This document shows positions 8,497 to 55,433 of a stretch of DNA of 64,000 bases, piece by piece (position 1 is the stretch's first letter; every line of letters starts with the position of its first letter). Under the pieces are notes generated by a model. The model was not told the DNA's origin. It did not search any database and saw nothing but the letters and a program-made list of their open reading frames with translations. Source of the stretch: Williamsia sp. 1135 (GTDB taxonomy: Bacteria > Actinomycetota > Actinomycetes > Mycobacteriales > Mycobacteriaceae); contig NZ_MJEI01000082.1 in the NCBI RefSeq assembly GCF_002095395.1, positions 16,545-80,544 of the forward strand. The letters run 5' to 3'. The position numbers and the translations under genes were made by a program.

Positions 8497-9080
8497 GTCT
8501 GGTCCCTTTCGGTGGCGTGGCGATCTGTGGGGCCGGGCCTCTGGTCATCGGTAGGGGCCGCGGTGTCGAGGTAGCGGCGTTGGGGTTCGTGGAGGTCGGT
8601 GGTACAGCGGTTGAACGGCCCTGTCGGGGCGATGAGAACTCCCAGATGGTGATCGAAGTGATCACGCAGGTACGCCGAGACTGCTTCTGGCCCTTCAATG
8701 GCGGCAGCGATCTGCACGGACCGCAGCACCCAGAACCGGGTGATCGCTTCGGGGTGTTCGTACCAGCGGGTGCACCACCGCACATCGCCTTGTCCGGAGC
8801 TGCTGAGTTTGCGTTCACACCACCCTGAGACGTTGGCCTCTACCCAGGGGATGAGCACAGCAAGGTCCGGTGGGCCGGCCTCGGCGGCTCCAGCCGGCGG
8901 CGTCTCGGTCGCGGGCTCTGTCTCGTCGCCGCTGTTGTCGATGGCGGGTGGGGTGTCGGCGAGACGTTCGAGCGAGTCAAGCGCTTGAGCGTGCAGCGTC
9001 GTGCTGTCGCTGACCCGCGCGAGCTGGTCCTGCATCGCTGCCAGGGTTGCTCGCAGTTCGGCAATCTCGTTGGTAGTCAT
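8493..9080 (-). CDS. DUF4913-like conjugation-associated protein
   Basis: A 195-residue protein. The N-terminal 35 residues form a likely coiled coil, followed by an acidic Pro/Thr linker. Residues 75-150 carry the WVEANVSGW...WCTRWYEHPEAITRFWVLR pattern typical of DUF4913 proteins in actinobacterial plasmids and integrative elements. The function of this family is unknown. Its placement next to the coupling protein, with a 4-base overlap, suggests an accessory role at the cytoplasmic face of the secretion system. Confidence 0.75.
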   Translation of the reverse strand: MTTNEIAELRATLAAMQDQLARVSDSTTLHAQALDSLERLADTPPAIDNSGDETEPATETPPAGAAEAGPPDLAVLIPWVEANVSGWCERKLSSSGQGDVRWCTRWYEHPEAITRFWVLRSVQIAAAIEGPEAVSAYLRDHFDHHLGVLIAPTGPFNRCTTDLHEPQRRYLDTAAPTDDQRPGPTDRHATERDQT

Positions 9081-10813
9081 GCACTCTGGGCTTTGGTGGT
9101 GTTCTCGGTCCCGGCGATCTGGTGCAGGTGGCGGCCCAGGGAGTTCGTAGTTCCTAGGGCGGTCATGGCGCTGTCGCGGATCTCGCTGGTTGCTCGGCGG
9201 GCGATGTCTTTGATTTCGCGCGAGTCGTCTTCGGTGTACCAGGGCAGCAAGTCCATCAGGACCGGGCGCGAACCTTGGCGGATGAGCAGTGCGTGCGCCC
9301 GTGACATCGCGGCGACCTCCTCGGGCCGCATGATCGGTTCATCGACGAGGGAACGTGATTTTCCTTGCGGTCCATTGGAGTTGGTTTGCCAGATCTTGTG
9401 CGTGCCCACGAGGTCGGAGATCATTCGGGCGTCCTCGATGTTTTGCAGCCCGGCCCCGATGATGCGGCAGGTCGATGCGCCCCACAGTGCGCCCATCTGT
9501 TCGCGGCCCCACACACCCATGCCCTGTTGGTAGGACTGCAAGATGACGTCGACGAGAATTCCTTTGCTACCCAGGTGGGACGCCTTGTCGGGGAGTTCCT
9601 TGATTCGGCAGATATTGGCTGCCTCATCGAGCACCATCGTGACGGGCGGATCGACGCGGCCACCTTGCGCGGAGGCGGCGAGGTCGCCAAGTTTGAAGAT
9701 GTGATCAACCATCGCGGCCACGACCGGGCCGGAGCTTTCCGCTCCTTCTTGGGTCATCAGATACAGGGTGGGCGCGTCGTCGGTGGTGGCGGTGAACAAT
9801 GTCCACAGGTCCAGTTCGGGAACCTCGTGGTCGGGTTGGTCGATCCAGGTATCGGGTGGGGTGATCCACGTCAGCGCCGACTCGTCCTGGATGCAGGCCA
9901 GGGCGGCCGCCGCACCGCCCTGGATCCCGCCCAGGGTTTCGTGCGGGAGGTCGAGTTGGCCTTCGAGGGCGTCGGCGGCCCGGCGTTGTCCGTGCTCGCG
10001 TAGCAGCTCTACCGGCTTGCGGGAGTAGGTGTCGATCCACGTCACGACATCGCGCATGGTGTGCCCAGATAGTGCGGCGGCGAGCAGGTTTCGGGCCAGC
10101 ATGAACTTGGCTCCGGAATCGAAGAAGCCGGAGTTGCCGCTCTCGGAGTTGTTCGATCCGACTCCGGCCATGAAGTGGGTGGCGATCCGCTTGGCGGAGT
10201 TGAACGACGTGATGTCGCGCAGGATGTTCCACCACCACATCTGTGTGGCGAACGCGATCTGGCCGGGATCGTAGGCGTAGATAGGTCCGTGCACTTTGCG
10301 CATCGCGGCCGTCAAGATCCACAGATCAGGTTTGTTCGAGGTGGCCACGACCGCGCCGGGCGCGGCGAGAATCCGCGGCACCGCTTGCGAGGAGGTCTTG
10401 TTCGACCGAGGACCCATGATGACGAGGCAGAAGTCCTCCAGCGTTTTGTACAACAGCTTCTTACGGCCGGCGACCTTACCGATCACGACGGCCAGCTGCG
10501 CCATGTCCTGGCCATCGTGGTCGTCGAGACCGCGCAGCTCGGCCCCCTTCTTCGCTGCCCCTGCGCCCATGACGTCCCCGAGGTCCTTGGTGTCGCGGAG
10601 CTTGCGCTGGGCGGGGGTCAAACCCCACAGCGGGTAGGTCACCGTGGCCACGGCCGCGATCGCTGCGCCGATCACCAGGCCGGCTCCGACCACGATCCAT
10701 TGTGGCCAGCCGGTGACCATCTGCACGCCGGTCAGCGCGCCCAGATACACCACGGCCGCGATGACGCTGCCGGCGATGATCTGCCCGGCGTTGTCGCCGC
10801 CCGGGGTGCTCAT
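9077..10813 (-). CDS. VirD4/TraG-like type IV coupling protein
   Basis: A 578-residue ATPase using the ATG at 10813, which overlaps the upstream stop by four bases (a longer frame to 10906 is not needed). Two membrane segments lie at about residues 10-62. Walker A is MGPRSNKTSS (Lys139), and Walker B is VTMVLDEAANI (Asp396/Glu397). The C-terminal part contains the IGAGLQNIEDARMISDLVGTH region typical of TraG/TraD proteins. It would form the hexameric pump that links the relaxosome to the secretion channel. The P-loop is the GPRSxKT variant usual for actinobacterial coupling proteins. Confidence 0.92.
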   Translation of the reverse strand: MSTPGGDNAGQIIAGSVIAAVVYLGALTGVQMVTGWPQWIVVGAGLVIGAAIAAVATVTYPLWGLTPAQRKLRDTKDLGDVMGAGAAKKGAELRGLDDHDGQDMAQLAVVIGKVAGRKKLLYKTLEDFCLVIMGPRSNKTSSQAVPRILAAPGAVVATSNKPDLWILTAAMRKVHGPIYAYDPGQIAFATQMWWWNILRDITSFNSAKRIATHFMAGVGSNNSESGNSGFFDSGAKFMLARNLLAAALSGHTMRDVVTWIDTYSRKPVELLREHGQRRAADALEGQLDLPHETLGGIQGGAAAALACIQDESALTWITPPDTWIDQPDHEVPELDLWTLFTATTDDAPTLYLMTQEGAESSGPVVAAMVDHIFKLGDLAASAQGGRVDPPVTMVLDEAANICRIKELPDKASHLGSKGILVDVILQSYQQGMGVWGREQMGALWGASTCRIIGAGLQNIEDARMISDLVGTHKIWQTNSNGPQGKSRSLVDEPIMRPEEVAAMSRAHALLIRQGSRPVLMDLLPWYTEDDSREIKDIARRATSEIRDSAMTALGTTNSLGRHLHQIAGTENTTKAQSA

Positions 10814-11508
10814 GCTGCCGTCTCCTGGCGCAGTCCGGCCGTGCGCGCCAGGTAGCGGCACCGGTCGGCCACCACAGCTCCCAGCGTGGAGCTGGCGTCG
10901 ATGCACACCGCATCGGTGCCGGTGGGGCAGCGCAGTTCGTAGAACGGTCCCGGACCCCGGCCGGCGCTGCCCGGGCCGCTGATGATGCCCTGCTCGGTCA
11001 CCAGAGGGAGCACTGCCTTCGCGGCGGCGGCGGTGACCGCATCGCGGCCAGGGGTCAGGTCTGCGGCCACGGCCGCCAGATCGAGGGCGAGATCCTCGGA
11101 CCCGCTGCCGGCGAGCAGCTCGGCGAACGTGGCGGTCGATCGCGAGTCGAGCAGGTGGGCGATGGTGATCGGCGGCCAGTCCACCATGGACGCTGCGTGT
11201 AGTGCGGCAGCGACCACCACCGACGCTTCGGGCACCACCAGGCGCATCGCGTCGGGTAGCGCGCTGGTGAGCTGGTCCGCGATCGCACCAGCGACGCGCA
11301 CGTCAGTGCTCAGCGAGATCGCCGGCCACCATCCGCGGCGCTGCCCCCCGGCGGTGGATGCTGCACTGACCACAGCGGTCTGCGGGCAGTGGCGCCACGG
11401 GGCGGCGAGCAGGGCGGCCGGAGTGTGGGTGATCATCAGCTGCGTGTGCGGCGCAGTCCACAGCTCTATGCCGGGCTCGTGCTGCACGGGTGTGTGGTTA
11501 TGCGACAT
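10810..11508 (-). CDS. Hypothetical protein between coupling protein and VirB4 genes
   Basis: A 232-residue Ala-rich soluble protein with no membrane segment or recognised motif. It overlaps both neighbours (11 bases with the VirB4-like gene, 4 with the coupling protein), so it is firmly part of the transfer operon. It might be a cytoplasmic cofactor of the two ATPases, but nothing in the sequence proves this. Confidence 0.65.
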   Translation of the reverse strand: MSHNHTPVQHEPGIELWTAPHTQLMITHTPAALLAAPWRHCPQTAVVSAASTAGGQRRGWWPAISLSTDVRVAGAIADQLTSALPDAMRLVVPEASVVVAAALHAASMVDWPPITIAHLLDSRSTATFAELLAGSGSEDLALDLAAVAADLTPGRDAVTAAAAKAVLPLVTEQGIISGPGSAGRGPGPFYELRCPTGTDAVCIDASSTLGAVVADRCRYLARTAGLRQETAA

Positions 11509-20121: not shown

Positions 20122-21222
20122 TCACCAGAATCGGCGGACGTACTGTTCCTCTCCGTCGAAGCCGCTCAGAGGGCTGATCTTGACGACATCGCCCGACTGC
20201 GGGGCGTGCAAGATCATGTCCTGACCGTTCTGTTTGCCGTAGTAGATGGCCACGTGGTGGGTGTTGCCGCCCGGGCCGAAGTAGATGAAGTCGCCCGGTA
20301 GCTTGTCTGCCGATGAGATCTGCTTGCCCCGTGCATCATTGAGTTGCCCGGGGTTGGAGTTGTCACCGGTGTAGTGCGGCAACACGATCTGCTTGCTGGT
20401 GGCTTGGGCCAGTCCGTACAACGTCAGGCCCGAGCAGTCGAAACCGATCTTTTCGGTGTCACCGTTGGCGTCGGCGGCACCACCACCGTCAGAAATGCCC
20501 TTCGTGGGACCGTCGGCGTTTCCGCCGCCCCACGCGTACGGGGTGCCCAGCCAGCGGGCAGCGGCCTGGATGATTTTCTTGGCGACCGGGCCGGAGAGCT
20601 TTCCTCCGCGGCCGCCGCTACCGCCCTGTTCGAGGGAGGAGTACTTCGGGATCAGGCTCTTGATCTTCGGGGCGTACGACTCGGTTTCGCCGTTGTTGAT
20701 CTTCGGGCCGCCGTTGGCGAGTACGCATCCGTAGCCGCAGTTGTAGGCCGACAGCACGATATCGAGATCGTCGCCCTGGATACGGCCTGACGCCTTGTCT
20801 TTCTGGGCTTGTTCGAGTGTTTTGCAGTCGAATTCGGCCTGAGCCATGATCGCATCGGGCGGATCGAACGCTGAGGCGGTGCCGTTACCGTTGGCGTCGA
20901 CCGCATACGAGGGCCAGGTGTAGGGCATGAACTGCGACAAACCCTGCGCCCCGGCCGGGGACACCGCATTCGGATTCCATCCCGACTCGACCTCGATCTG
21001 CGCCGCAATGACTGGCGCAGAGATTCCTTTGCAGCGCTTGCCGGCTTTGATGACCCACGGTTCGAACTCGGGGGGCACGACACCGGTCTTGAGTCCAGCC
21101 TGGCTGCTATAGCCGCCGGTGTCGTCGTCGGGCTGCTGATAGGACGCAGCCGCGAAGAACATCACGAACAGGACCGGCACCAGGAGCAAAACTCCTAGCA
21201 GCAAACCCAGTGATTTCTTCAC
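20122..21222 (-). CDS. Bifunctional cell-wall hydrolase: SLT transglycosylase plus NlpC/P60 peptidase
   Basis: A 366-residue protein with an N-terminal membrane anchor (residues 4-26). An SLT domain follows (EVESGWNPNAVSPAGAQGLSQF, catalytic Glu79), then a Gly-rich linker near 200, then an NlpC/P60 domain with catalytic Cys263 in GFDCSGL and a His pair at 322-323 in THHVAIYYG. Such two-domain hydrolases are the standard wall-opening enzymes of Gram-positive conjugation systems (TcpG/Orf14-like). It is the first gene of the core transfer operon, downstream of a strong hairpin. Confidence 0.92.
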   Translation of the reverse strand: MKKSLGLLLGVLLLVPVLFVMFFAAASYQQPDDDTGGYSSQAGLKTGVVPPEFEPWVIKAGKRCKGISAPVIAAQIEVESGWNPNAVSPAGAQGLSQFMPYTWPSYAVDANGNGTASAFDPPDAIMAQAEFDCKTLEQAQKDKASGRIQGDDLDIVLSAYNCGYGCVLANGGPKINNGETESYAPKIKSLIPKYSSLEQGGSGGRGGKLSGPVAKKIIQAAARWLGTPYAWGGGNADGPTKGISDGGGAADANGDTEKIGFDCSGLTLYGLAQATSKQIVLPHYTGDNSNPGQLNDARGKQISSADKLPGDFIYFGPGGNTHHVAIYYGKQNGQDMILHAPQSGDVVKISPLSGFDGEEQYVRRFW

Positions 21223-21282
21223 GGCGGGTACACCTTCCCCAGCTCAAACATGTTGCTCGATAACGGTTTGTCGTACGTATCT

Positions 21283-21320
21283 CTCTGGTTGGGGTGCACT
21301 CCCATACGCCCCAACCAGAG
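21283..21320 (-). terminator. Hairpin between cutinase-like gene and transfer operon
   Basis: Perfect 12-bp arms CTCTGGTTGGGG (21283-21294) and CCCCAACCAGAG (21309-21320) enclose a 14-base loop. It lies 17 bases after the stop of the minus-strand cutinase-like gene and about 60 bases before the start of the NlpC/P60 gene. No clear U-run follows, as is common for actinobacterial terminators. It probably separates the two transcripts or limits read-through. Confidence 0.65.
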
Positions 21321-21337
21321 GCATGACGTGCCCGGGG

Positions 21338-22903
21338 TTAGTAGCCCTGGGCCTCGATGCGGCCCAGCAGCCACTTGGCCAGCCACAACGTCGCGGACTC
21401 GCCGCGCTGATCGACCGGCGTTTTGTTGTAGGCCGTGTGCGCGCCGAGCAGCGCATACGAGGCCACTTCGATGGCCTGAGTGGCCAACTCGTCGGGCTTG
21501 GTCAAACTCAGGAACGCGTCATACTCGGGCATCCGGACCACTTGGCCGATGTCGTCGAGCATCGACGACGAGAACACCACACGGGCCAGCTCCAGCGGCA
21601 GCGATGCCGGATTGACCGACGCCGCCAACGAGACACGCCCCACCTCGGTACTCACCGAACGGACAGCCTTGATGATGTCGGCCGGATCAGCAGTGGCCAC
21701 GTTCGTCAGCAGCGTCACCGCACGTTGAGTGGCGTACGGCCCAATGTCTTCCTTCTTGAGGTTGAGCAGCGGGACCACCGCGGCGATGGCCTTCGACTTG
21801 CTCGACAGCGCACAGATACCGTCGCCGGTCCCGCAAAAACTCGTGACCCGATCACTGAGGACACCGAAGCCGTCTGGGCGAGCTCCCACGACACCCTGGC
21901 CACCGGGGTTCGGACCGACAAAGGATTCGGCGCCGGGCAACTGGATCGCCGGACTAGAGGTGCCGGTCTCGGCATCGGGGTCGGCGGTGGTCGGGGTACG
22001 GGCCGGATCACTCAACAGGCCTGCGGCCAGGATGTCCTTCGCGGGGAATGCGCCCTTGTTGTTGCCGATCTCCGAGAGCACGTCGCCGGCGATCAGTGAG
22101 CCTTGCGAGTAGCCAAGGATGGCGACTTTCGATGACGGGCAGTCGCTATCGATCTGTTCAAGACGCTTCTTCACTGCGGCGGTGCCCTGCGCCCGCGATT
22201 CACCCAACGTCAGCGGATCGCCATGAGCGACTTGCCCTATCGGTCCTCCAACCTGAGCGACATACGGGATCTGCTCAAAGCCCACCGAGAGCCCCACTTC
22301 CCCGGAGCCGGTCGTCGGTGCAGCCGGGACAGTGGATGTCGCAGACGGTGCCGAGCTGGAGGTCGACGGTGAGTCCTCACCGTCCGAGGGGCTTGTGTCG
22401 GGCCATAGGTCCGTTGCCTCCGAATCAATCGTCGGCGCGGATCCACTTGTCGTAGTGGGAGCCGCCGTTGACCACAAGGGCGCGTCTGGGTCTGCGCCGG
22501 CGTCCTGGCCATACGTCGCCGTGGCGGCGGGAGACTCGATTCCGGCTGGAACAGACGAGGGCCCTGGGATGGGAACCCCGCGCTCAACAGCAGCTTTCAG
22601 CGGATTGACGACATTGCCAAGCATCCCCGGAACGATCTTAGGGTCCGACTTGTTGGTCGTTTCCCACGTTCCAGGCACAGCTAGAACGAACACGTCCTTG
22701 CAATCCGTCGCTGCAACGGCAGGTCCTGCCGCGTTGGTAATGATCAGTGCACTTGCGGCCGTGATCCCGACGGATAGAGCGGTGGCGAGGAGTTGCTTGC
22801 CAGGCCGGGTCTCGAAATGCGGGCGCTTTATAGGTACGGCAGAAGCTGACATATCGACCTTTGAGGAGTTGCGAGTGGGCCGGACCGCCCAAAAAACAGA
22901 CAT
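21338..22903 (-). CDS. Secreted cutinase-family serine esterase
   Basis: A 521-residue protein from the ATG at 22903 (GGAAGG upstream); an internal ATG at 22852 would shorten it by 17 residues. A long signal peptide ends near AVA-ATD (residue 65). The cutinase domain begins DCKDVFVLAVPGTWE, and the nucleophile motif GYSQG has Ser266. A roughly 90-residue Ser/Thr/Pro-rich insertion (115-205) interrupts the domain. The C-terminal 150 residues are an extra helical region. Enzymes of this family hydrolyse esters or lipids. On a conjugative element it may act on the mycolate envelope, which is inference. Confidence 0.8.
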   Translation of the reverse strand: MSVFWAVRPTRNSSKVDMSASAVPIKRPHFETRPGKQLLATALSVGITAASALIITNAAGPAVAATDCKDVFVLAVPGTWETTNKSDPKIVPGMLGNVVNPLKAAVERGVPIPGPSSVPAGIESPAATATYGQDAGADPDAPLWSTAAPTTTSGSAPTIDSEATDLWPDTSPSDGEDSPSTSSSAPSATSTVPAAPTTGSGEVGLSVGFEQIPYVAQVGGPIGQVAHGDPLTLGESRAQGTAAVKKRLEQIDSDCPSSKVAILGYSQGSLIAGDVLSEIGNNKGAFPAKDILAAGLLSDPARTPTTADPDAETGTSSPAIQLPGAESFVGPNPGGQGVVGARPDGFGVLSDRVTSFCGTGDGICALSSKSKAIAAVVPLLNLKKEDIGPYATQRAVTLLTNVATADPADIIKAVRSVSTEVGRVSLAASVNPASLPLELARVVFSSSMLDDIGQVVRMPEYDAFLSLTKPDELATQAIEVASYALLGAHTAYNKTPVDQRGESATLWLAKWLLGRIEAQGY

Positions 22904-23393
22904 AGCGATGCCTTCCAGTGCCAGGGCTGGTCAGAGAGAAAGAAGTCAGGACGCCGCGGGGCGTACACCAAAGGCAAGAGAACGAACCCGGACGATGGGG
23001 TGTCCCAGTGGACACGTCGGACCAGACACCATCCGATACCGGTACGGCTCGCACGCGAACCCCACCGGCTGCGCGGGACACCCCACACGCGGCGACAACG
23101 CGCCACGGCCGCTCGCAATAACACCTAAACTGGAAGAGTTCGGTGCTGTACCTACGGGTTCAGAGGCTGGACATTCGGTGCTCGGTGAGCGGCTAGACCG
23201 CAAATCTTGATCGCTCACTCGGTGCTTTTCGCCCTGGGAGAGGCCAGACGCCAAATCACGTCCTCTCCCAGGGTCCCCCGGTCTGTCAGGCGGTCGCGCC
23301 CGAATCGTCACGTGTTCCTCCACGAGAACCTCCTTATTCTACTATCTCATAATAAAACACACTTCTTAAGACCATGCAATAGAATCTGATGAT
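22904..23393. other. Divergent promoter region between cutinase-like and HTH genes
   Basis: No convincing gene is present. It holds the inverted repeat at 23232-23273 and, at 23330-23395, an unusually A+T-rich stretch (TTATTCTACTATCTCATAAT) that is a likely promoter for the HTH gene starting at 23394. The rest is ordinary GC-rich sequence that may carry a long leader for the cutinase-like gene. Confidence 0.5.
23232..23273. repeat. 12-bp perfect inverted repeat in the divergent promoter region
   Basis: CCCTGGGAGAGG (23232-23243) and CCTCTCCCAGGG (23262-23273) are exact reverse complements 18 bases apart. It may be a terminator or attenuator hairpin on either strand, or a dyad operator with half sites three helical turns apart (30 bp start to start). 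Confidence 0.65.
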
Positions 23394-23903
23394 GTGACCT
23401 CAGGCGAAGAGTCCTCCAAAGTTGGTAATCGTGAGACGAAGAGACTTCGCGTGAGCCGTCGCGTATTGCGTGGGTTTGCTCCAGAGCACTTCAAGTCCCT
23501 TCGGATCGATGCGGGCCTTTCGCGTGGAGAACTCGGGCGGATAGCTGATGTGAGTGAAGGGGCTATCCGAGCTTGGGAAGTGGGTGAGGCTGTGCCACAG
23601 GTGGACACCCTCGATCGGGTGATGACCGCTCTTGGCCGTCCGATTAGCGAAGTAGTTCAGGTGCGGGCCGATGATCGGTATCTGGCGGACCTTCGCGTTC
23701 TGGCCGGATTGACTCAGCCGCAGTTGGCCCAACGGGCGGGCTGCTCCACTGCGCAGCTTGCGGCCGTCGAGCGCGCTCACCGGCCGCTCAAAGAGCCGTT
23801 GCTGACGAACATCGCAGCCGCACTGGGCACTGACAAGTCGGTCGTGGACGCGGCCTACACGCGAACGCGACGACGGCCACCGACTCCAAGGCCTATGCCG
23901 TGA
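23394..23903 (+). CDS. Tandem-HTH (two XRE domains) transcriptional regulator
   Basis: A 169-residue protein from a GTG. Two XRE/Cro-type helix-turn-helix domains lie in tandem: residues 28-75 (FKSLRIDAGLSRGELGRIAD...WEVGEAVPQVDTLDRVMTAL) and residues 95-150 (LADLRVLAGLTQPQLAQRAG...VERAHRPLKEPLLTNIAAAL). A basic Arg/Pro tail follows. It probably controls the neighbouring genes. XRE proteins commonly pair with ImmA/IrrE-type proteases, and one is encoded 2 kb away on the opposite strand (25936-26466), so this could be its cleavage target. That link is inference. Confidence 0.8.
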   Translation: MTSGEESSKVGNRETKRLRVSRRVLRGFAPEHFKSLRIDAGLSRGELGRIADVSEGAIRAWEVGEAVPQVDTLDRVMTALGRPISEVVQVRADDRYLADLRVLAGLTQPQLAQRAGCSTAQLAAVERAHRPLKEPLLTNIAAALGTDKSVVDAAYTRTRRRPPTPRPMP

Positions 23904-23945
23904 TGTCACAGGTTGCTACTCCTCCCCGGCGCACTCCCTATACTG

Positions 23946-23974
23946 GCGCTAATATAGCGCACATATGTAAGCGG
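23946..23974 (+). promoter_or_regulatory. Dyad operator and promoter box before an HTH gene
   Basis: GCGCTA-ATA-TAGCGC (23946-23960) is a dyad with 6-bp arms. TATGTAAGCGG follows at 23964-23974, and the HTH gene begins 40 bases further on. The same 11-mer TATGTAAGCGG occurs at 27394-27404, before the ribbon-helix-helix gene. The dyad is probably an autoregulatory operator and the 11-mer a promoter -10/start element. Confidence 0.5.
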
Positions 23975-24014
23975 CGCGAGGGTGCCGGCCGGGAGCTACG
24001 CGAGGATGGTTGAC

Positions 24015-24584
24015 ATGCAACGCTTCGCCGATGTGATTAATCGGCGGAGACGTGAGCTGGGGCTAAGTCTTGCGTCTGTAGCTGCTGCGAATGGGCCTTC
24101 AGAACCCACGATGGTTCGCATTGAGAGCGGACAGAGTCCCCCTCTTCGTAACCCGACGTTGGCAAAGCTCGATGTTGCCCTCAAGTGGCCGGCCGGCAGC
24201 GCTCGCAACGTTTACCAGGGCGGCGATCCACTGGTCAGCGAGCAGGCGGGTACGACGGCGACGCACGGCGAGATTGCGGTTGCTGTCGGAACCATCACAG
24301 ATCTCGTCGAAACTGTTACTGAGCTGAGCAACTACACCGCAGCGCACCCAGATCCCGAACTTGGCGAAGTTCTAGCCCGACTCCGGTACATCGTTTCTCC
24401 ACTGGTCGGACGGGTGGTCGCAGATATGCTCCGTGACGAAAACCGACATGGAGTTGCGCCCAACCGGATTGCAGAGGCAATCCAGGTGTTTTTAGACACT
24501 CCCCCAGCAGACGTCACTCCATCGAGAACTGCGGCGAACACAGAGCTACGTAGACTAGCCGCGCGGACCCAGCAGAACGAGTAA
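24015..24584 (+). CDS. XRE-family HTH protein
   Basis: 189 residues from the ATG at 24015, chosen because GAGG lies 9 bases upstream; the frame is open to 23982. The HTH domain covers residues 1-60 (FADVINRRRRELGLSLASVA...TMVRIESGQSPPLRNPTLAKLDVALKW broken into its helices), preceding a helical C-terminal region of unknown function. It follows the tandem-HTH gene by 110 bases, with its own dyad operator. It may regulate the nucleoside hydrolase/ImmA/membrane-protein operon opposite it. Confidence 0.72.
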   Translation: MQRFADVINRRRRELGLSLASVAAANGPSEPTMVRIESGQSPPLRNPTLAKLDVALKWPAGSARNVYQGGDPLVSEQAGTTATHGEIAVAVGTITDLVETVTELSNYTAAHPDPELGEVLARLRYIVSPLVGRVVADMLRDENRHGVAPNRIAEAIQVFLDTPPADVTPSRTAANTELRRLAARTQQNE

Positions 24585-24603
24585 CACACTGAGAGGCGAG
24601 TCG

Positions 24604-24945
24604 GTGAATCAAACAGAAGAGCGCATCAAGCTCGTGGTTCAAACACTCCTGAACGAGGACGGTTTATCTGAGATCAGTGGCACTGTGGGGTGTTCGATCC
24701 AGCAGCTACAGAGCGGTGAGCTAACACCCTCTCAGATCGCCGTACTCGAGCGCACGTTGAGACTCCAAGAGTCATTTTTCAATCTTGGTGACTCCAACAC
24801 TGAAGCGGAGCTCCGCCTAGTCAGAGCCCTCAAATTTGCAGGCCCGGAGAGGATACGCCTGCGCGGAGCCCCACCTGTCGCTTTTCTTGCTCAGGCGTTA
24901 GAAGAAGTAGATCGCGCTGATTCCATCGACGCGCAAGAGCAATAA
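24604..24945 (+). CDS. Small hypothetical protein convergent with a membrane-protein gene
   Basis: 113 residues from a GTG with GAGAGGCGAG upstream. The centre (residues 20-60, ISGTVGCSIQQLQSGELTPSQIAVLERTL) looks like a divergent HTH. Its last 116 bases are shared, antisense, with the 3' end of the MAB_1171c-like gene, so both genes use the same DNA for their C-termini. It follows the HTH gene by 19 bases and is likely co-transcribed with it. Confidence 0.6.
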   Translation: MNQTEERIKLVVQTLLNEDGLSEISGTVGCSIQQLQSGELTPSQIAVLERTLRLQESFFNLGDSNTEAELRLVRALKFAGPERIRLRGAPPVAFLAQALEEVDRADSIDAQEQ

Positions 24946-25939
24946 CATCTTCGGCGGTATTCGTTGGAACCGTCTCTCTGTTCTTTGCATGCAGTAGTTC
25001 CGCGTCGAAGTTGTCAGCACACAAAGTGGCCGCATCTAGCTTCAAAAAGTGCAGTGCTTCGATAGTTTCAGTAATTTGTCGAACAAGCCGGGTGTCGGGA
25101 GGCATAGCCGCAATCTCTGGGAGCCGGACATGAGGAGCGCGGTCGGTCACCACCCTCCAAACGGTCGGCAGGACAACAATCCACTCCCCCGTGAGGGTCG
25201 GTCCGTGCTGTCGCCCACGCAAGATCCATGCAGCCAGGCCGAGCAACCCAATTACGCACATACCCAGCGTGAAGTAGGCAAACAGATTTCCGTTGCTATC
25301 GCGTTGGAGCCGCTCAGCGGCCGAGAGCTTGCCCTGCCAGCTGGAGATCGAATACCAAAGCAGCATGACCGCGTTCACGCCCGTCGTGAAAAATAAGAGC
25401 ACTGCAGCAGCGATGATCGCGGTCGAAGGCCGACGTTCATGGTCCCCATGGCGGAGGGATACAAGCACTACGATCAGCGCGTATAGGTCCCACAGCACGA
25501 TTGCGCCGGCGTAAACCACGAAATAGCCGACGGACGTAACGGCGGAGGCTTCTTCGATGGAGGTGGTCCGGTCGCCCCCGGCGACTCGATCAAGCAATAT
25601 CAAGATGATGCTCACTGTCACCAGGAGCACGAGGTTCGCTGACCACCAACCGGAGTGTTTTCGGTGCTTGTCCCTTGAGATGTGGGCCGCCGAAGCTGCC
25701 ACCAAAGCCGCAGCAACGCAGAGGATATGGGCAGCAACACGCACACTGCGCTCGTCGGCTAGTTCGACTGCCCAGTCGTTCAGGGGACCAAATTTTATGG
25801 TGTCCACCAGTGCAAAGCACGCGATAAGGAGCGTGAATAGATGTGCTACCGAACGCATGACCGCAAAACGAGCTAACACTGTCACCCACGCGATGACGAC
25901 TATTGAAGCATCAATCCACAACGGCAGATCGTTCCTCAT
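24830..25939 (-). CDS. Seven-helix membrane protein, MAB_1171c-like
   Basis: A 369-residue protein with seven predicted membrane helices (about residues 7-28, 31-50, 68-88, 97-119, 134-162, 175-199 and 220-242) and a 125-residue cytoplasmic C-terminal domain. Layout and sequence style fit the MAB_1171c family of putative transporters (DUF6545-like), which typically occur beside an ImmA/IrrE protease and XRE regulators in actinobacteria. The ATG overlaps the protease stop by four bases. Transport substrate and function are unknown; a sensor or effector role is also possible. Confidence 0.75.
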   Translation of the reverse strand: MRNDLPLWIDASIVVIAWVTVLARFAVMRSVAHLFTLLIACFALVDTIKFGPLNDWAVELADERSVRVAAHILCVAAALVAASAAHISRDKHRKHSGWWSANLVLLVTVSIILILLDRVAGGDRTTSIEEASAVTSVGYFVVYAGAIVLWDLYALIVVLVSLRHGDHERRPSTAIIAAAVLLFFTTGVNAVMLLWYSISSWQGKLSAAERLQRDSNGNLFAYFTLGMCVIGLLGLAAWILRGRQHGPTLTGEWIVVLPTVWRVVTDRAPHVRLPEIAAMPPDTRLVRQITETIEALHFLKLDAATLCADNFDAELLHAKNRETVPTNTAEDVIALARRWNQRDLLLLTPEQEKRQVGLRAGVSSPGLQI

Positions 25940-26466
25940 CGTGGTCCAAGGAACGTGTCTAGAACTGACGATGCACTTAACATCCGCTGACCCCTCTGTA
26001 TCAAATCGAAATCTTCGTCTCGTGCCAGCGTCAGCATGAGTAACTGACTTGCCAACAGCTCTGCGGACGCCTCGTCGGCGTTATCGAATGTCTCGCGGCG
26101 AAGTGCGTTGATGACGAGGTCTCTTGGGAGGGATGGAAACCACGCGGCCAGCAGGTCTTCGGTGATGCCCTCGCCCTGTTTGCCGCATGTATGTCCTAGC
26201 AGAATGTGGGCCAACTCGTGGGCGACGATCAAACGGGAGGGCCACTCACCCGACGCCGTGTCGTAGACGATGATGTGCGCGCTTTCAGTGGTTAGCACCA
26301 TGCCGGAGATACCGTCAGAACCGCCGCCGACGGGAAATCCTGACAACGTGATTGCTCGCCCACACCGGTCCTGCGTGAAGGCGACAAGATCGTCGACACT
26401 AGAACACCTGCTTGACGCTGCACTACGAACAACTTTCTTAATGCGATGCGACGTAGTCTTTTTCAT
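25936..26466 (-). CDS. ImmA/IrrE-like metalloprotease
   Basis: 176 residues from the ATG at 26466, which overlaps the nucleoside hydrolase stop. The zinc motif HELAH is at residues 83-87 (IVAHELAHILLGHTCG). A later acidic helix (NADEASAELLASQLLML) supplies the third-ligand glutamate, as is usual in this family. Relatives cleave XRE-type repressors in response to DNA damage or phage (ImmA, IrrE) and serve in several defence modules. The likely partners are the XRE proteins at 23394-24584 and the seven-helix protein encoded downstream. Confidence 0.82.
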   Translation of the reverse strand: MKKTTSHRIKKVVRSAASSRCSSVDDLVAFTQDRCGRAITLSGFPVGGGSDGISGMVLTTESAHIIVYDTASGEWPSRLIVAHELAHILLGHTCGKQGEGITEDLLAAWFPSLPRDLVINALRRETFDNADEASAELLASQLLMLTLARDEDFDLIQRGQRMLSASSVLDTFLGPR

Positions 26467-27371
26467 ATCAGGTTGCGCCGGATTGTTGCTCTGATCGCGT
26501 TCCTGTCGACGTGCGCGACACCGCGATGTCGGGAGGCTGCCCCGGTCTTCGCTGGATGAAGACGGACCACCCCTGCATCCACGTCGACGAGGGCTGGGCG
26601 AGAACTCATGTTGGTGTGTCGTAGTGCTACACATGCCGCGACGCTGTCGTGGGCAGGCACGCCCCACTGGGGCCCGTACCCGTAGCTAGCTGCCCTGGAT
26701 CGCCCATAGCTCTCATGTACGGCACGAAGTGCTTGGCTCGCCTCGCCAGTTCCGAAGTCGGTATCGTCGAGCACTACGGTTCGAGTGACGTCAAGGCCCA
26801 CCCACGTGGTACGAAGGTCGCTGTGAGCCACGGCCGTTGATGCACGAGGGTTATGCCGCGTGTTGGTGTCCCCAGCAGCGGATAACCAGTCGCTGGGCTC
26901 CCCGAACCCATGGCCACCCATGACGATTACATCGCCGATCCATTCGGTAATCCGTGGTTCCATCTCAAGGGCCAGAGCCAGGTTCGTGAGAGGCGCGATT
27001 GCCAATAGCGCCCCCCGGCCGGCGGTGCGCTTAGCGAAGTCAATGATTGCTTCGGCGGCAGGTTGCGCCGAGCTCGCGGACGGGGGCTGCCGGGCGTCCG
27101 TCAAGGTATCTCCCAGGCCGTCTGAGCCGTGAGCGTCACCCCGAACCCAGCTGGCGGTCGGAGGGCCCCCTGTAACCACAGCGGACGACGATCCCCACAG
27201 ATCCAGTACCCACTGGGCGTTCCGAGCCGCCTCCCCCGCGGTGCAATTCCCCCAGGTCGTCGATATTCCATGGAGCTTGCCTGCGGCCAGCACAAGACTG
27301 ATGGCGAGTGAGTCATCCACCCCGCAATCAGTGTCTACCCACACGAGCTGCTCGTCAGTGAGCTGCCTCAT
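26463..27371 (-). CDS. Inosine/uridine-type nucleoside hydrolase
   Basis: A 302-residue protein. The calcium-binding signature is at residues 13-21 (DTDCGVDDS; the consensus has DTDxGxDDA), and the family pattern continues with GN, the segment LLAIAPLTNLALALEMEP and a later histidine/aspartate region (VPAHDSVAACVAL). It would cleave the N-glycosidic bond of nucleosides. It is the first gene of a tightly overlapped three-gene operon with the ImmA/IrrE-like protease and seven-helix protein. That linkage is unusual for a simple salvage enzyme and suggests a nucleotide-depleting effector. Confidence 0.85.
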   Translation of the reverse strand: MRQLTDEQLVWVDTDCGVDDSLAISLVLAAGKLHGISTTWGNCTAGEAARNAQWVLDLWGSSSAVVTGGPPTASWVRGDAHGSDGLGDTLTDARQPPSASSAQPAAEAIIDFAKRTAGRGALLAIAPLTNLALALEMEPRITEWIGDVIVMGGHGFGEPSDWLSAAGDTNTRHNPRASTAVAHSDLRTTWVGLDVTRTVVLDDTDFGTGEASQALRAVHESYGRSRAASYGYGPQWGVPAHDSVAACVALRHTNMSSRPALVDVDAGVVRLHPAKTGAASRHRGVAHVDRNAIRATIRRNLI

Positions 27372-27393
27372 TAGTCCCCCATGTATTAGTGGC

Positions 27394-27404
27394 TATGTAA
27401 GCGG
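27394..27404 (+). promoter_or_regulatory. Shared promoter 11-mer between divergent genes
   Basis: TATGTAAGCGG is identical to the box at 23964-23974 and similar to TATGTAAGG in the palindromic element at 33201-33268. It lies in the 106-base gap between the divergent nucleoside hydrolase (start 27371) and ribbon-helix-helix gene (start 27478). It is probably a promoter core for the plus-strand gene. Confidence 0.45.
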
Positions 27405-29681: not shown

Positions 29682-30272
29682 TTGCCAATCATTTCAGCAG
29701 CCAACACAAAAGGTGGCGTCGGAAAGACCACCACAGCGATGTACCTCGCGAACGAGTACGCACGGGCCGGAAGGGAAGTGACCGTCGTCGACCTAGACAA
29801 GCAGGGCTCGGCGTCGGTGTGGGCAGACAAAGCCTCCGACCGCGGTACCCCGCTACCTTTTGCTGTGGAGGTCTCCAACACCAAGCGCATTAGCCGACTC
29901 GCAGACAGCAAGGGGAGCGACCACCTCATCGTCATTGACACCCCGCCGGGAGATAGCTCCGTGATCGAAGGGGCGATCGACGTGTCGGACTTCGTCATTA
30001 TTCCCACCACACCGTCCGAGCTCGACACCGACCGAGTCTGGGAGACCATTCCAACAGTCCGGGACGGACAGCTATACGGAGTGCTCGTAGCGTCCGCGGT
30101 CCTCCATACCCGGCTCCTCAATGACGTAATCACGGCTCTGGATGAGAACGAAGTAAGCCGCTTCAAAACGGTCGTGAGCTTCGCTCAGCGCTACAGGCAG
30201 GCCGTGGGCTATCGTCCTCGCCGCGACGCGACCTACGCCGACGTTGCCGAAGAGATCGGAGCAGCGCTGTGA
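29682..30272 (+). CDS. parA: ParA-type partition ATPase
   Basis: A 196-residue protein, typical length for small ParA proteins lacking an N-terminal HTH. The deviant Walker A motif is KGGVGKTT (residues 10-17), and the switch motifs VVDLDKQGSASVW and LIVIDTPPG follow. It would move plasmid copies to daughter cells together with a centromere-binding protein. The start codon is a TTG after AAGGAAAG. It overlaps the next gene by four bases (GTGA), as usual for parA-parG operons. Confidence 0.92.
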   Translation: MPIISAANTKGGVGKTTTAMYLANEYARAGREVTVVDLDKQGSASVWADKASDRGTPLPFAVEVSNTKRISRLADSKGSDHLIVIDTPPGDSSVIEGAIDVSDFVIIPTTPSELDTDRVWETIPTVRDGQLYGVLVASAVLHTRLLNDVITALDENEVSRFKTVVSFAQRYRQAVGYRPRRDATYADVAEEIGAAL

Positions 30273-30502
30273 GCGGCGGGATTCAACGCAAACCAAGCGA
30301 CATGGGGCCACGCATCAAACCAGCGGCAGCCAAAGTGGCCGACACCTTCATCAAATCCTCCGGCACCCAGTCCCAACTCACCGTGCGCATCGATACCAAT
30401 GTCCACCGCAGGTTCAAAATCGCGACGACCACAGCCGACGTTTCAATGGCCGAGATTGTGGAAGACGCGATCCGCGCCTGGCTCCGTGACCACGACGTAT
30501 AG
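30269..30502 (+). CDS. ParG-like ribbon-helix-helix partition protein
   Basis: 77 residues from a GTG. A flexible basic N-terminus (about 35 residues) precedes a ribbon-helix-helix domain, LTVRIDTNVHRRFKIATTTADVSMAEIVEDAIRAWL split into strand and helices. This is the layout of ParG-type centromere binders, which also repress their own operon. It is translationally coupled to parA. The GCGGTA/TACCGC boxes upstream of parA are the likely binding sites. Confidence 0.8.
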   Translation: MSGGIQRKPSDMGPRIKPAAAKVADTFIKSSGTQSQLTVRIDTNVHRRFKIATTTADVSMAEIVEDAIRAWLRDHDV

Positions 30503-33451: not shown

Positions 33452-33877
33452 TCACCCTTTCGCGAGGCCCAGTGGGTGTGGCGCTTCGCTCCCGAGCCAT
33501 TTTCCGGTGAACAACCATTGTTCGTAGAAGTAGAGCCATTCGCTGGCCCAGGGGACGATGGTGGTCGCAATCAGGTCCTTGGATCCGTCAAACTCGTTGC
33601 CGTAGTAAAGGCAGAGCTCGTTGCCTGGGTAGATGTGGGGTAGCGGCTCAAGGGGGCGTGTCTCGAGCTCCGGGGTCAAGACGGTTACCCGTGGACGCCG
33701 TCGGTGCGTGTAACGAATGCCCACGGTGTAGGCGATGCTCATCGGTGTCGGTTGCAGGGTGACAGACCACACCAGCGTGCCCGCCTTGATCAATGGCCTT
33801 CGCACACTGGGGAACTGCCGCTGAAGGTCAATCGCCTGCTGAATGACGGTCAGCTGCTTACCGTGCGGCCTGGCCAC
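33452..33877 (-). CDS. E2-like protein of a short type II CBASS operon
   Basis: A 141-residue protein. The C-terminal half carries LPHIYPGNELCLYYGNEFDG and TIVPWASEWLYFYEQWLF with a final TGKW-x-G...HP pattern, typical of the E2-like proteins of CBASS operons that lack E1 and JAB partners. Cys89 in ELCLYY is the expected catalytic cysteine. The GTG start overlaps the CD-NTase by 20 bases. Known relatives regulate the CD-NTase through thioester chemistry at its C-terminus. Confidence 0.8.
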   Translation of the reverse strand: MARPHGKQLTVIQQAIDLQRQFPSVRRPLIKAGTLVWSVTLQPTPMSIAYTVGIRYTHRRRPRVTVLTPELETRPLEPLPHIYPGNELCLYYGNEFDGSKDLIATTIVPWASEWLYFYEQWLFTGKWLGSEAPHPLGLAKG

Positions 33878-35009
33878 CGTAGAACCTGTGGGCAGGAATC
33901 GTCGTGGTTGTCGCGGCGGTCGTGAGGCGTCCGCCGGCCGAGAGGTTCACATTTCCGCCCTCCCTGGCGCGGTTGGTGGCCGCGCCGATGTGTTGGAGAG
34001 CCTGTTCGACAGGATCAGTGCCGAAGGCCTTCGCGAATCGTTGATGCAGTGCGGTGGTGCCGGAGGTTTCCAGGACGAAGCCGGTGAGGTCGCGCTCGAC
34101 CGCTGTGCGCCACTGCTCGAACTTCAGTCGGCGAATCTCGTAATCGTTCCACTTGTCAGCGAAGTTCTCGCCCGCGCACGCGGGGTTCTCCACCCAGTAT
34201 TTTCCGGCGCGGTTCTCGATGTGATCGTGCATGCGCTGCACCGCGCTGATGGTCGCATCAACGAGATCGGTCTTGCCCTGGTACGTTAGGCCTGCGAGAG
34301 TCGTGATAAGGCTGGACGGCGGTCGGTCGTCGAGGTCCTCGGCGAAGAAAATGTCGCGGTGCCGTTTGAGGATCTGGACCACCCGATGGAGCGGTGTGCG
34401 GACGCGGTGCTTAGGCACGTCGTCGACCGAACCGTAGGACTTGGCGAGCGCAACTCGTTCAGCATCGAACTGTCGGGCGCATTGGCGGCGGAACCACTCG
34501 ACGTAGGCCAATGGGTCGGACTTCTGCCAGTTTCGCAGGTTGAGATCGGTGAGTTCGATCGCGGTCGCCGATGGAGACTCGACGTCGAGGATGGCGGGCA
34601 GCACGTCCATGTGGAAGTGCTCGTAGTGGAGGCACCATGAGCGCCGACCTTCGGACACCTGGTTGGGGCTCTCGCAGGCGGCGCCGTCGTGATCGCGGTG
34701 GTATTCCGCGAGCAGTCGTCCGACCCGCTTCTTGAGCTCTTCCTGGCTGATGGACGTCTTTGCGATGTCGAGCAGGGACACCAGGTCGAGGTCATACTCA
34801 CCGGCTCGGTGAAGAGGGCGGACGACTGTGCCGAGCATGAAGCTGCCCTGGACATAGACCTGCGCGCCGGCCTGCGAAAGGTGGTCACCCAGATCTTGGT
34901 AGCAGGATTCAGCGGCCCGGAACGCCGCCTCGTTGATGTCGAGCTCAGCGATGGTGGCCCCGAGGAGCTGGGAGATCTGCTGTTCTTTGCTGTCGGCGAG
35001 GATGGTCAT
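33858..35009 (-). CDS. CD-NTase (cyclic oligonucleotide synthase) of CBASS
   Basis: 383 residues from the ATG at 35009. The nucleotidyltransferase motif QGSFMLGTVVRP (Gly55-Ser56) leads to EYDLDLVS with Asp73 and Asp75, and a third acidic residue is Asp135 in HMDVLPAIL. The C-terminus ends IPAHRFYGGQAAR, an exposed tail like those modified by CBASS conjugation enzymes. Infection would trigger synthesis of a cyclic oligonucleotide that activates the HNH-SAVED effector encoded upstream. The gap to that gene is 43 bases. Confidence 0.9.
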   Translation of the reverse strand: MTILADSKEQQISQLLGATIAELDINEAAFRAAESCYQDLGDHLSQAGAQVYVQGSFMLGTVVRPLHRAGEYDLDLVSLLDIAKTSISQEELKKRVGRLLAEYHRDHDGAACESPNQVSEGRRSWCLHYEHFHMDVLPAILDVESPSATAIELTDLNLRNWQKSDPLAYVEWFRRQCARQFDAERVALAKSYGSVDDVPKHRVRTPLHRVVQILKRHRDIFFAEDLDDRPPSSLITTLAGLTYQGKTDLVDATISAVQRMHDHIENRAGKYWVENPACAGENFADKWNDYEIRRLKFEQWRTAVERDLTGFVLETSGTTALHQRFAKAFGTDPVEQALQHIGAATNRAREGGNVNLSAGGRLTTAATTTTIPAHRFYGGQAAR

Positions 35010-35052
35010 GGCATGAGTGCTTCCGGGTGGGAGGTGATGTGGACGGGTGGGG

Positions 35053-36282
35053 TCATGAGTCTGTTTCCAACGCCAGGACGTAGGTGCCGTCGATGCGGTC
35101 GAACACGCGGAGCTGAGCGTGAGCCGCGGCCATATGGGCGCGGCCAATTTCTACCGCTGCGGCGGCAGGTACCGCGAGGACGAGACTGATCGGCTGATTG
35201 CGATGGTCCGCCTCGATGGCCGCGAGGACTTCGCGCCACGTATCGATGAGCGCCTGAAGATCCTCAGAGCTGCGCAGGATCGTGGGACTCAACGAAACAC
35301 CCTCTGCGCGGATGTCATAGCGCGGTGCGTTGCGCAACGTGCCGGGAAGCGAGTCAAGGTCGACCGGCCCGCTGATGCTCACCGTGACGAGCGGAGCACC
35401 AGAACCTGGAACTGCCGTGACACGAAACTGCAGGTTGTTGCTGCGGCCGTGGGAGTACCACCCCCAGCCGTCGCCGGTTCCGCGCCGACGGTTGTGGACG
35501 GTTACGTTTGTGACGTCGTCGAGCAACACGCCGAGCTGCACGAGAATCGGAATTCGTGCGAGCGCGAACACCGAGATGTGATCGACCTGCTTGGTCTTGA
35601 GATGGTTGCTCAGAGGCCGCAGACGCTTCCCCAGAGTGAGGGCAGCGGCCTTCCAGTACGTGGGGTCGCTGTCGTCTTCGCCATCAAGGGAGCGGAGGTC
35701 GACCTCACAGTTGCGGCTGTCGTCATGCAGGCTGAAGTCGGGGAACCGCTGGTCCTCCAACAGGGCACGGATCACGGCCTGTTTGCTGAAGTCGACTGCC
35801 TGTCCGCGCACGTCGCCGGACACACGAATGACGGTGCTCTTGGGTTTGCGTAGCAGTCCCGTCAGCTCGTGGATGTCGCGCTCGTGCTGCTCTTTGAGCG
35901 CGCGCAGCTCATCCTCGTTGTAGGTCGACCAGTGCTCGAAGGTGTCGATTACCTTGTGCTCACCCGGGCAGAGCAACATCAGGTTGTGCGGCAGTGCGCG
36001 TTGCGTCAGCGGCATCGAACTTGCGCCCCGCGGCGACCCTTTCTCGGTCGTGGCACCGATGATGTGGGCGAGCTGTCCTGTGAACACAGACTGACCGGTC
36101 GTCTCGTCGTCGGCCAGAAACTCCTTGCAAAACGTGCACCGCCCACCAGCAGCAACCCACACGCGTCTGGCGTCGAGGTCGCCGACGGTCACACGCTTCC
36201 CCCGACGGTCGAAAGCGCCAAACATCTCGACCCGATCCGTGGGGTCGGTCGTGTCTGACTCGTGCGTCGCAGTCGTGGGCAT
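35053..36282 (-). CDS. HNH-SAVED effector nuclease (Cap5-like)
   Basis: 409 residues from the ATG at 36282 (AGGA upstream); an ATG at 36303 is the alternative. The N-terminal HNH domain has the zinc-finger Cys pair CTFC (49, 52), LAHI (His73), LPHNLMLLCPGEHKVID (Asn100, Cys105, His109) and the closing helix LKEQHERDIHEL. The C-terminal 240 residues match a SAVED domain, with HISVFALARIPILVQLGVLL. SAVED binds cyclic nucleotides and assembles the nuclease, which degrades DNA. The gene is promoter-proximal in the CBASS-like operon and divergent from an AAA ATPase gene. Confidence 0.9.
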   Translation of the reverse strand: MPTTATHESDTTDPTDRVEMFGAFDRRGKRVTVGDLDARRVWVAAGGRCTFCKEFLADDETTGQSVFTGQLAHIIGATTEKGSPRGASSMPLTQRALPHNLMLLCPGEHKVIDTFEHWSTYNEDELRALKEQHERDIHELTGLLRKPKSTVIRVSGDVRGQAVDFSKQAVIRALLEDQRFPDFSLHDDSRNCEVDLRSLDGEDDSDPTYWKAAALTLGKRLRPLSNHLKTKQVDHISVFALARIPILVQLGVLLDDVTNVTVHNRRRGTGDGWGWYSHGRSNNLQFRVTAVPGSGAPLVTVSISGPVDLDSLPGTLRNAPRYDIRAEGVSLSPTILRSSEDLQALIDTWREVLAAIEADHRNQPISLVLAVPAAAAVEIGRAHMAAAHAQLRVFDRIDGTYVLALETDS

Positions 36283-36444
36283 GGGGCGGGTCCTACGAGA
36301 CATGTGCGCGTACCGGGCCGGTATTTGCGCCGCGCGGGGTGGGCCGGACCCAGGGCCCGACAGCCATGATGCTTACACGGCTGTCATTATCATACTTGCG
36401 ACCACCGACAAACTTGGGGCGCAATCGGAGATCAGTCTAGATTT

Positions 36445-46122: not shown

Positions 46123-46184
46123 GTGAAGTCCTTCAATCAGATCGGGCCATGCAACAAAGTGATATCGAGCAGGACTCGAACAGG

Positions 46185-46206
46185 TTACTACTATGTTGGT
46201 TAGTTT
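46185..46206. promoter_or_regulatory. BlaI-type operator before the M23-blaI-M56 operon
   Basis: TTACTACTATGTTGGTTAGTTT has one good half site (TACTACTAT) and one weak half (TTAGTTT). It lies 63 bases upstream of the M23 start and fits autoregulation of the blaI operon with lower affinity. Confidence 0.6.
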
Positions 46207-46375
46207 TTCACTTTGCGGGTGAAGCCAGGGGTCGGACTCTGCCGCAACGGGCCCGGCGTGGTGGTGTGGTCCCTGCGGGCGCGCCGGGTCAGTCGGGCGA
46301 TTGTCGCCTGTCTTGGGGGTGAGATTGGTCCCTCGGCAGTGTCTGCACGAGGTCGTCGTCACGTCACTGTCCGTA

Positions 46376-46398
46376 AACTACTAGGGGTCTTAGTTGTT
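46376..46398. promoter_or_regulatory. BlaI-type operator before the L,D-transpeptidase gene
   Basis: AACTACTA-GGGGTC-TTAGTTGTT carries two imperfect half sites and lies 25 bases before the GTG start of the L,D-transpeptidase. Confidence 0.6.
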
Positions 46399-46422
46399 GT
46401 GCGTGTTGAGGAGCGTAACCCA

Positions 46423-47685: not shown

Positions 47686-47784
47686 ATCCTCGGTGAGACT
47701 GCGAGGGGCCCCGCGAGAATCAGAAGCGACGAAGCCACCGACACGACTGGGGGTGTGAGTGGCAGGCCCCTCCACAGGGACATT

Positions 47785-55429: not shown

Positions 55430-55433
55430 GCAG

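Follow-up and report, generated by a model that had tools for sequence, protein, structure and literature searches.

A nucleoside hydrolase, M78 protease and seven-helix protein module on actinobacterial plasmids: a candidate membrane switch

Proteases of the M78 (ImmA/IrrE) family free XRE-repressed genes through cleavage of the repressor, as described for ImmA-ImmR, PprI-DdrO and CapP-CapH (PMC2701414, PMC10904395). Here we describe a module built around such a protease in Williamsia sp. 1135, in a 64,000-nucleotide stretch (the window) that makes up the final 64 kb of a plasmid-like contig of 80,544 bases, NZ_MJEI01000082.1. Genes for a nucleoside hydrolase (NH), an M78 metalloprotease and a seven-helix membrane protein form a minus-strand operon that converges on two plus-strand genes, XRE2 and SML (Table 1). 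Whilst XRE-M78 modules are known, a fixed seven-helix partner, a repressor of EspR-like type and an exchangeable enzyme were not found described, which is weak evidence of absence. The initial annotation of this DNA knew of no named system with these parts, and none was found in the literature searched (openly licensed papers, mostly listings): no description of the NH/M78/seven-helix combination came up, including under MAB_1171c/DUF6545, nucleoside hydrolase with ImmA, IrrE with quorum sensing, conjugation or Streptomyces XRE, and metalloprotease with seven transmembrane.

ImmA-ImmR of ICEBs1 and PprI/IrrE-DdrO of Deinococcus share with this locus the pairing of an M78 protease with an XRE repressor (PMC2701414, PMC10904395), whereas the module carries in its own operon a fixed seven-helix protein and an enzyme. 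PprI is triggered by single-stranded DNA; the predicted trigger of the module lies at the membrane. CapP-CapH of CBASS is alike in its M78 protease and helix-turn-helix (HTH) partner but regulates CBASS, whereas the module stands apart from the CBASS of the same plasmid, and no half-site was listed at the promoter of that CBASS. An M78/XRE pair may form part of a CBASS operon; here the module is neither within nor adjoining the CBASS operon, which lies at 33858-36303, about 6.5 kb from NH. The XRE-COG2856 three-component systems of Makarova and colleagues (2009) likewise combine a protease, an XRE protein and a third component and are mobile; their third component is a RelE or PIN toxin, whereas here a seven-helix protein and a small-molecule enzyme take its place (PMC2701414). 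The DUF6545/MAB_1171c family, to which most homologues of the seven-helix protein belong, is named as a putative transporter, whereas here the protein is proposed as the receptor of the M78 protease. We know of no transport test of this family. The one paper found on it reports that a knock-out formed about half the biofilm (PMC8707978). EspR of Mycobacterium resembles the XRE partners of the wider core described below, although the SML of the window is much diverged from it. Reports of EspR together with an M78 protease or a seven-helix protein are not known to us.

The five-gene module and its parts

The five-gene module is conserved on actinobacterial plasmids, the hosts of which are mostly soil-dwelling. 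When 72,556 plasmid records were searched by tblastn with the seven-helix protein as query (E up to 0.01), nine matched, seven from Rhodococcus and two from Gordonia, at 39-46% identity (two of the nine are from one strain, PD630), and in all nine the NH-M78-seven-helix genes converge in the same order on SML and XRE2. The six open reading frames (ORFs) that the initial annotation placed here, with the minus-strand trio and its two 4-base overlaps, are indeed present, and the gene order to which it had drawn attention is thus a conserved one. R. globerulus, the only seven-helix locus in the genome-contig search, also holds the five parts; the M78 search of genome contigs gave no match. In more distant loci, where NH is 33-37% identical (Hoyosella, Dietzia and two Rhodococcus), the order NH-M78-seven-helix was found in all four fetched, and NH and M78 matches adjoin, by coordinates only, in three further Rhodococcus records. 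Among 397 genomes of the order, the exact subfamily occurs only in that of the window. A viral origin was considered and rejected: no relative was found among viral contigs, and the phage matches amount to a weak M78 match in three records, two of them of phage Adler, the one Adler record fetched holding the wider cassette.

Several of these copies are interrupted. An IS1182 transposase gene lies inside the M78 gene on G. hongkongensis p3, and transposases split the seven-helix gene on G. alkanivorans pYYC01; in both cases (loci L005/L007 and L006) NH is intact. Loss of control seems to be tolerated in the Gordonia copies, because NH stays whole while the M78 or seven-helix gene is broken by insertion sequences. 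In CP003950 the seven-helix gene matches in two pieces, and in one piece in the other PD630 record.

The identities of the two enzymes hold as initially annotated. NH scores 163.9 bits on PF01156 (cut-off 34.2), carries DTDxGxDD, HGxDGLG, PLTN, N170 and HD, and aligns to solved nucleoside hydrolases, with catalytic residues that are mostly invariant among relatives: the Asp residues of DxDxGxDD, the Asn and the late Asp are kept in nine of nine rows, and the His preceding the late Asp is Tyr in locus L016. Judged by its sequence, NH is a member of the IU nucleoside hydrolase family with the residues of active enzymes. The protease, with HELAH, was taken to start at ATG 26466 in place of a longer GTG ORF. 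Its Pfam M78 score (15.5) is under the cut-off of 22; it matches the PADLOC capP profile at 3e-6, and the H, E, H and downstream E are invariant in 15 of 15 rows. A sequence comparison with solved structures gave one match only, to an unrelated chain at E 1.

The membrane protein, initially described as MAB_1171c-like, is probably so by way of its relatives, nine of 14 of which, most at about 40% identity, carry PF20182 (DUF6545); the window protein itself obtained no Pfam or NCBIfam name of that kind in direct profile scans. Positive charge favours a cytosolic C-terminus in all 15 rows (window and 14 homologues), and since this part is predicted to be cytosolic it could meet the M78 protease. 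Foldseek matches in the PDB were weak (no E under 0.001) and list mostly GPCRs and some microbial rhodopsins; they were not taken as homology.

Two of the three small plus-strand genes initially noted, XRE2 and SML, belong to the core, whereas XRE1 falls outside the fixed five. XRE2 was called from GTG 23982, with ATG 24006 or 24015 the likelier start, and its relatives in the nine plasmid records are 47-54% identical. SML, which had been listed without a role, is not a bystander but conserved and probably a diverged EspR-like partner. Profile scans gave it no family name, barring one marginal NCBIfam match at 0.041. In the wider core the gene adjoining M78 often encodes an EspR-like XRE protein (a profile of five such proteins, A9, matches EspR of the PDB at 7.7e-31), and proteins at the SML position in loci L017, L015 and L014 match A9 at E 1.5e-28, 3.6e-26 and 3.2e-14 in a 12-sequence set. 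The A9 profile alone misses the window SML; bridged with the L014, L015 and L017 proteins, it picks up the SMLs of L006 (15.9 bits) and the window (14.4 bits). An hhalign comparison of the SML family with the core EspR-like proteins gave a probability of 73, and the predicted SML model (pLDDT 81) has EspR as its top Foldseek match, weak at E 0.043. XRE1 is at this position in none of the nine plasmid records, being displaced in KB1 and not found in the other eight; its relatives occur in Hoyosella, Dietzia, Nocardia, R. fascians and Adler.

Operator-like sites and the wider core

Aligned regions upstream of XRE2 share a conserved palindrome (window copy in Table 1), and a half-site common to the XRE2 and NH promoters, a predicted operator, is as expected of XRE-M78 derepression. 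A ten-base half-site matrix was derived from no sequences other than the XRE2-promoter palindromes in six loci, with the tested locus left out and L004 and L011 removed together, and the highest-scoring site in the roughly 100 bases upstream of NH was taken. This site ranked 2, 3, 2, 2, 2 and 3 in the window, L002, L003, L004, L006 and L011, among 25,740 to 127,982 positions, with a chance of 0.003 to 0.026 per locus; the six loci are related, so these chances should not simply be multiplied. For the window the rank was 2 of 127,982, with a matrix that contained neither its own locus nor any NH promoter. A second half-site, mostly weaker, lies 11-12 bases off in tandem at the NH promoter of five of the six loci, and an NH-promoter site is also found in L007, L009, L010 and L012. 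In the 80.5-kb contig, KB1 plas4 and pYYC01 the strongest sites are those of the two module promoters, and nothing outside these exceeds 12.9, where the strong sites reach at least 15. Because there is no strong site elsewhere on the contig and the two complete plasmids, the visible regulon would be the module itself, so it seems, with NH as the only evident enzyme output; NH is the likeliest output because this regulon appears closed. Nocardia pNF1, with a P450 version of the module, has one strong site (16.9), 79 bases before XRE2; none was found in R. fascians (L020) or Adler (L013).

The pairing of M78 with a DUF6545 seven-helix protein is near-constant. At E up to 1e-6, PF20182 has matches in 46 of the 296 genomes from the class and in none of 14 control genomes, and M78 stands beside it in 29 of the first 30 short loci. 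A census took the best PF20182 match of 32 of the 46 genomes with flanks of about 6 kb: of these 32 loci, 31 have M78 no more than 2 kb from DUF6545 and 28 have an EspR-like gene no more than 3 kb away. The seven-helix ORF was recognized in 29 loci, with M78 on its strand in 28 and at most 100 bases from it in 27. The core also occurs on contigs of several megabases, presumably chromosomes.

What varies is the enzyme beside the core, and it is this variation around a constant core that supports a switch with exchangeable enzymes. Among plasmid loci, which were chosen from 46 records with an M78 match (40 of the 46 listed), and phage Adler, a P450 is found beside the core in Nocardia pNF1 and Adler, a methyltransferase in pNF1 and R. 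fascians, an alpha/beta-hydrolase in pKB1, and an FAD oxidoreductase and an SMP-30/gluconolactonase in two Streptomyces. In 28 of the 32 genome loci, 30 neighbour proteins, mostly products of the gene after the seven-helix gene, were scanned with Pfam; the result, an uncontrolled tally, was six PAP2 (two over the curated cut-off), three FAD oxidoreductases, three alpha/beta-hydrolases, two amidases and two short-chain dehydrogenases, one each of epimerase, amidohydrolase, PhoD and NH, and six of other families (M28, YkuD, Cys-tRNA synthetase, S11, kinase and SMC). All six PAP2 and both amidase genes are downstream on the same strand, and five of the six FAD and alpha/beta-hydrolase genes are convergent. 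The NH in this set (L089, 8890-9846, plus strand; PF01156, 322 bits) is the third gene past the DUF6545 core and outside the operon, and its placement may be due to chance. An enzyme has apparently been swapped on one plasmid backbone, as pKB1 (L019) and pYYC01 (L006/L028/L029) have the same ParA accession, WP_011161105.1, and a different gene before M78, for an alpha/beta-hydrolase in pKB1 and for NH in pYYC01. The ten NH-linked M78s form one group in a 30-row tree (one change; none of 500 shuffles as low), with support of 80/56 and presence in 79% of 200 bootstrap trees, and a single recruitment of NH is the simplest, if weakly supported, reading of this tree.

The window's own genome has a second EspR-like/M78/DUF6545 core on another contig (G000:C6, L099, 3961-6396), and none of the four genes to each side of it encodes an NH. 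In the mycobacteriophage record of Adler (L013, KC960489, 2665-7033) the genes for XRE, XRE, M78, DUF6545 and cytochrome P450 stand in a row. Pseudarthrobacter pACHL01, which carries two M78 genes and a nearby MpaB oxygenase, was not counted as a core, its two tested neighbours having no DUF6545 match.

A proposed membrane switch and competing explanations

The anatomy of the locus is best read as the initial annotation had it, with a protease that releases repression and a membrane protein that acts as sensor. We hold it somewhat more probable than its opposite that the locus is a self-regulated membrane switch with a receptor-protease-repressor core. A small molecule would bind the seven-helix protein outside the cell, and the liganded protein would gate or activate the M78 protease, which would then cut XRE2 or the EspR-like repressor. 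Repression would be lifted at the XRE2 and NH promoters, which would raise NH, M78 and receptor in a positive feedback and the repressor in a negative one, and NH would consume the nucleoside that triggered the switch and so remove the signal. Four elements of this scheme we infer: the protein that binds the half-sites, the cutting of XRE2 or its partner by M78, the gating of the protease by the seven-helix protein, and a nucleoside as ligand. For the full chain, in which a nucleoside is trigger and substrate alike, the probability falls a little short of even. More tentative still is the general proposal that EspR-like, M78 and DUF6545 proteins make up a widespread, unrecognized class of transmembrane signalling system, each version with its own ligand-processing enzyme, of which the version in the window would sense a nucleoside and terminate its own signal by hydrolysing it. 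The circuit may serve in signalling between cells, against a nucleoside antibiotic or in salvage.

Bacterial membrane signalling is thought to run mainly via kinases, cyclases, chemoreceptors and anti-sigma factors, to which, if the proposal holds, a seven-helix receptor working by way of an M78 protease would add a route. The exchangeable enzyme would then be a handle on the ligand, each enzyme hinting at what its receptor senses. In the public records examined, the proteins of the core go by ‘putative transporter’, ‘toxin’ or ‘hypothetical protein’. Being small and plasmid-borne, with a sharply defined candidate operator, the NH version is testable in one laboratory strain.

Several observations count against the switch in this form. 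Ligand, cleavage and DNA binding are predictions from sequence; the nucleoside as ligand follows solely from the presence of NH in the operon, and NH could be an output that has nothing to do with the ligand. The half-sites may be those of the EspR-like protein or XRE1 and not of XRE2; the NH-promoter site of KB1 (12.3) is barely over the plasmid background of 11.4, and the distant NH loci L014-L017 have no strong site (best 11.0). The EspR-like assignment is weak in this subfamily, where the SMLs of L002 and L004 match neither A9 nor the bridged profile, and the fold match of the seven-helix protein is weak. No evident enzyme stands beside the plasmid cores of R. antarcticus and Streptosporangium, four of the 30 census neighbours gave no Pfam match, and several others (tRNA synthetase, M28 and YkuD among them) are probably unrelated genes.

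The serious rival to the membrane switch, unlikely on balance, is transfer control, in which the module would time plasmid conjugation as ImmA-ImmR does in ICEBs1, with a cell-derived small-molecule cue trimmed by NH and XRE1 relaying to the transfer genes. It stays serious because the cassette is found beside cutinase and transfer genes and because XRE1 is divergent from these in several plasmids: cutinase, lytic-transglycosylase or NlpC/P60-type genes adjoin it in the window and most plasmids fetched, such neighbours also accompany versions with another or no enzyme (pNF1, R. fascians and R. antarcticus), and relatives of XRE1 are divergent from cutinase genes in Hoyosella, Nocardia and R. 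fascians. Yet the window has no strong half-site at its cutinase or other transfer genes, XRE1 is missing from this place in all nine module plasmids, and the core is also found on the presumed chromosomes.

Detoxification, an improbable reading, would have the module sense a neighbour's nucleoside antibiotic and NH destroy it. An inducible hydrolase with a likely membrane sensor would suit such a role, as would the P450, FAD oxidoreductase, amidase and alpha/beta-hydrolase of other versions, which are common detoxifying families. NH enzymes, however, usually prefer ordinary nucleosides, no candidate drug is known, and no paper joining nucleoside hydrolase, nucleoside antibiotic, resistance and Streptomyces was found in the openly licensed literature.

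Defence against phages or plasmids, which the initial annotation had put forward, found no direct support, and we regard it as decidedly improbable. Infection would lead the protease to lift repression and NH to deplete nucleosides. The capP match of the M78 protease, a related cassette on phage Adler and a CBASS cyclase and SAVED-endonuclease pair 6-9 kb away speak for it. The CBASS operon (33452-36303, minus strand) comprises a cyclase (33858-35147; SMODS, PADLOC 1.7e-111) and a SAVED-endonuclease effector (35053-36303; 2.1e-140), the pair being followed by a 141-residue unnamed ORF; ParA and other genes lie between it and NH. A PADLOC scan of ten flanking proteins thus turned up a defence system, this CBASS pair, but one whose promoter has no listed operator-like site (a weak one, 12.2, lies at 35503 inside the effector gene), and annotation tables of the fetched relatives, inspected by eye, hold no CBASS-like name, many genes there being ‘hypothetical’. 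PADLOC matches of the module and XRE1 themselves were few: XRE1 matched generic HTH profiles (RmrA 6e-14, capH 1e-8), the protease matched capP, the seven-helix protein had one marginal match (E 0.019), and NH, XRE2 and SML had none. The substrates of nucleoside hydrolases are free nucleosides, which make a poor target if replication is to be halted, and the enzymes in the place of NH elsewhere (P450, FAD oxidoreductases, methyltransferases, amidases, alpha/beta-hydrolases and PAP2-like proteins) would be odd anti-phage effectors and are, to our knowledge, not known as such. Because the enzymes beside the core vary, a small-molecule theme is preferred over an anti-phage one. No paper since 2018 that joins nucleoside hydrolase, anti-phage and defense system was found in the openly licensed literature.

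That the locus is a toxin-antitoxin or plasmid addiction system of XRE-M78 type, in which NH is the toxin, is very improbable: the module is plasmid-borne, and XRE-COG2856 pairs were once predicted to be toxin-antitoxin systems (PMC2701414), but it has two convergent operons, five genes and a membrane protein, and in Gordonia NH stayed whole where insertion sequences broke the M78 or seven-helix gene.

Layout and surroundings of the module

Table 1. Positions in the window of the module genes, operator-like sites and neighbouring features
Feature	Position	Strand	Basis or detail
NH (nucleoside hydrolase), 302 aa, first operon gene	26463..27371	-	PF01156, alignment to solved enzymes
M78 (ImmA/IrrE-type) metalloprotease, 176 aa, HELAH	25936..26466	-	HExxH and downstream E invariant
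Seven-helix membrane protein (DUF6545/MAB_1171c-like), 369 aa, C-terminal part predicted cytosolic	24830..25939	-	
XRE2, single-HTH, proposed repressor, conserved C-terminal domain	23982..24584	+	
SML, probable cryptic EspR-like XRE protein, 113 aa	24604..24945	+	
XRE1, tandem-HTH, divergent from cutinase operon; variable companion outside fixed core	23394..23903	+	
Palindromic operator-like site, XRE2 promoter	23947..23973		CGCTAATATA-n7-TATGTAAGCG
Tandem operator-like half-sites, NH promoter	27382..27403		strong 27394-27403, weaker 27382-27391
Cutinase-family protein and SLT/NlpC-P60 protein, context outside module	20122..22903	-	
TraG/TraD-type coupling protein of conjugation machinery, context	9077..10906	-	
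ParA-type partition ATPase and small RHH-like protein, context	29682..30502	+	32% and 29% identity to ParA and ParG of KB1 plas4

The NH and protease ORFs share four bases (26463-26466), as do the protease and seven-helix ORFs (25936-25939), and the 3' end of SML runs 116 bases into the seven-helix gene. The contig is, by its gene content, plasmid-like, because it encodes a MobA/VirD2-type relaxase, a TraG-type coupling protein, SLT/NlpC-P60 and cutinase proteins and a ParA-type gene. The ParA protein touches the PADLOC PDC-M28B model at 7e-7 over 32 residues. Farther along the window (44953-59052) are genes for an M23 peptidase, an Ig-like/YkuD protein, cytochrome oxidase subunit I and CtaG/CopD, names that resemble the cargo annotation of pYYC01. 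Between XRE1 and the divergent cutinase operon lies a perfect 12-base inverted repeat with an 18-base loop (23232-23273).

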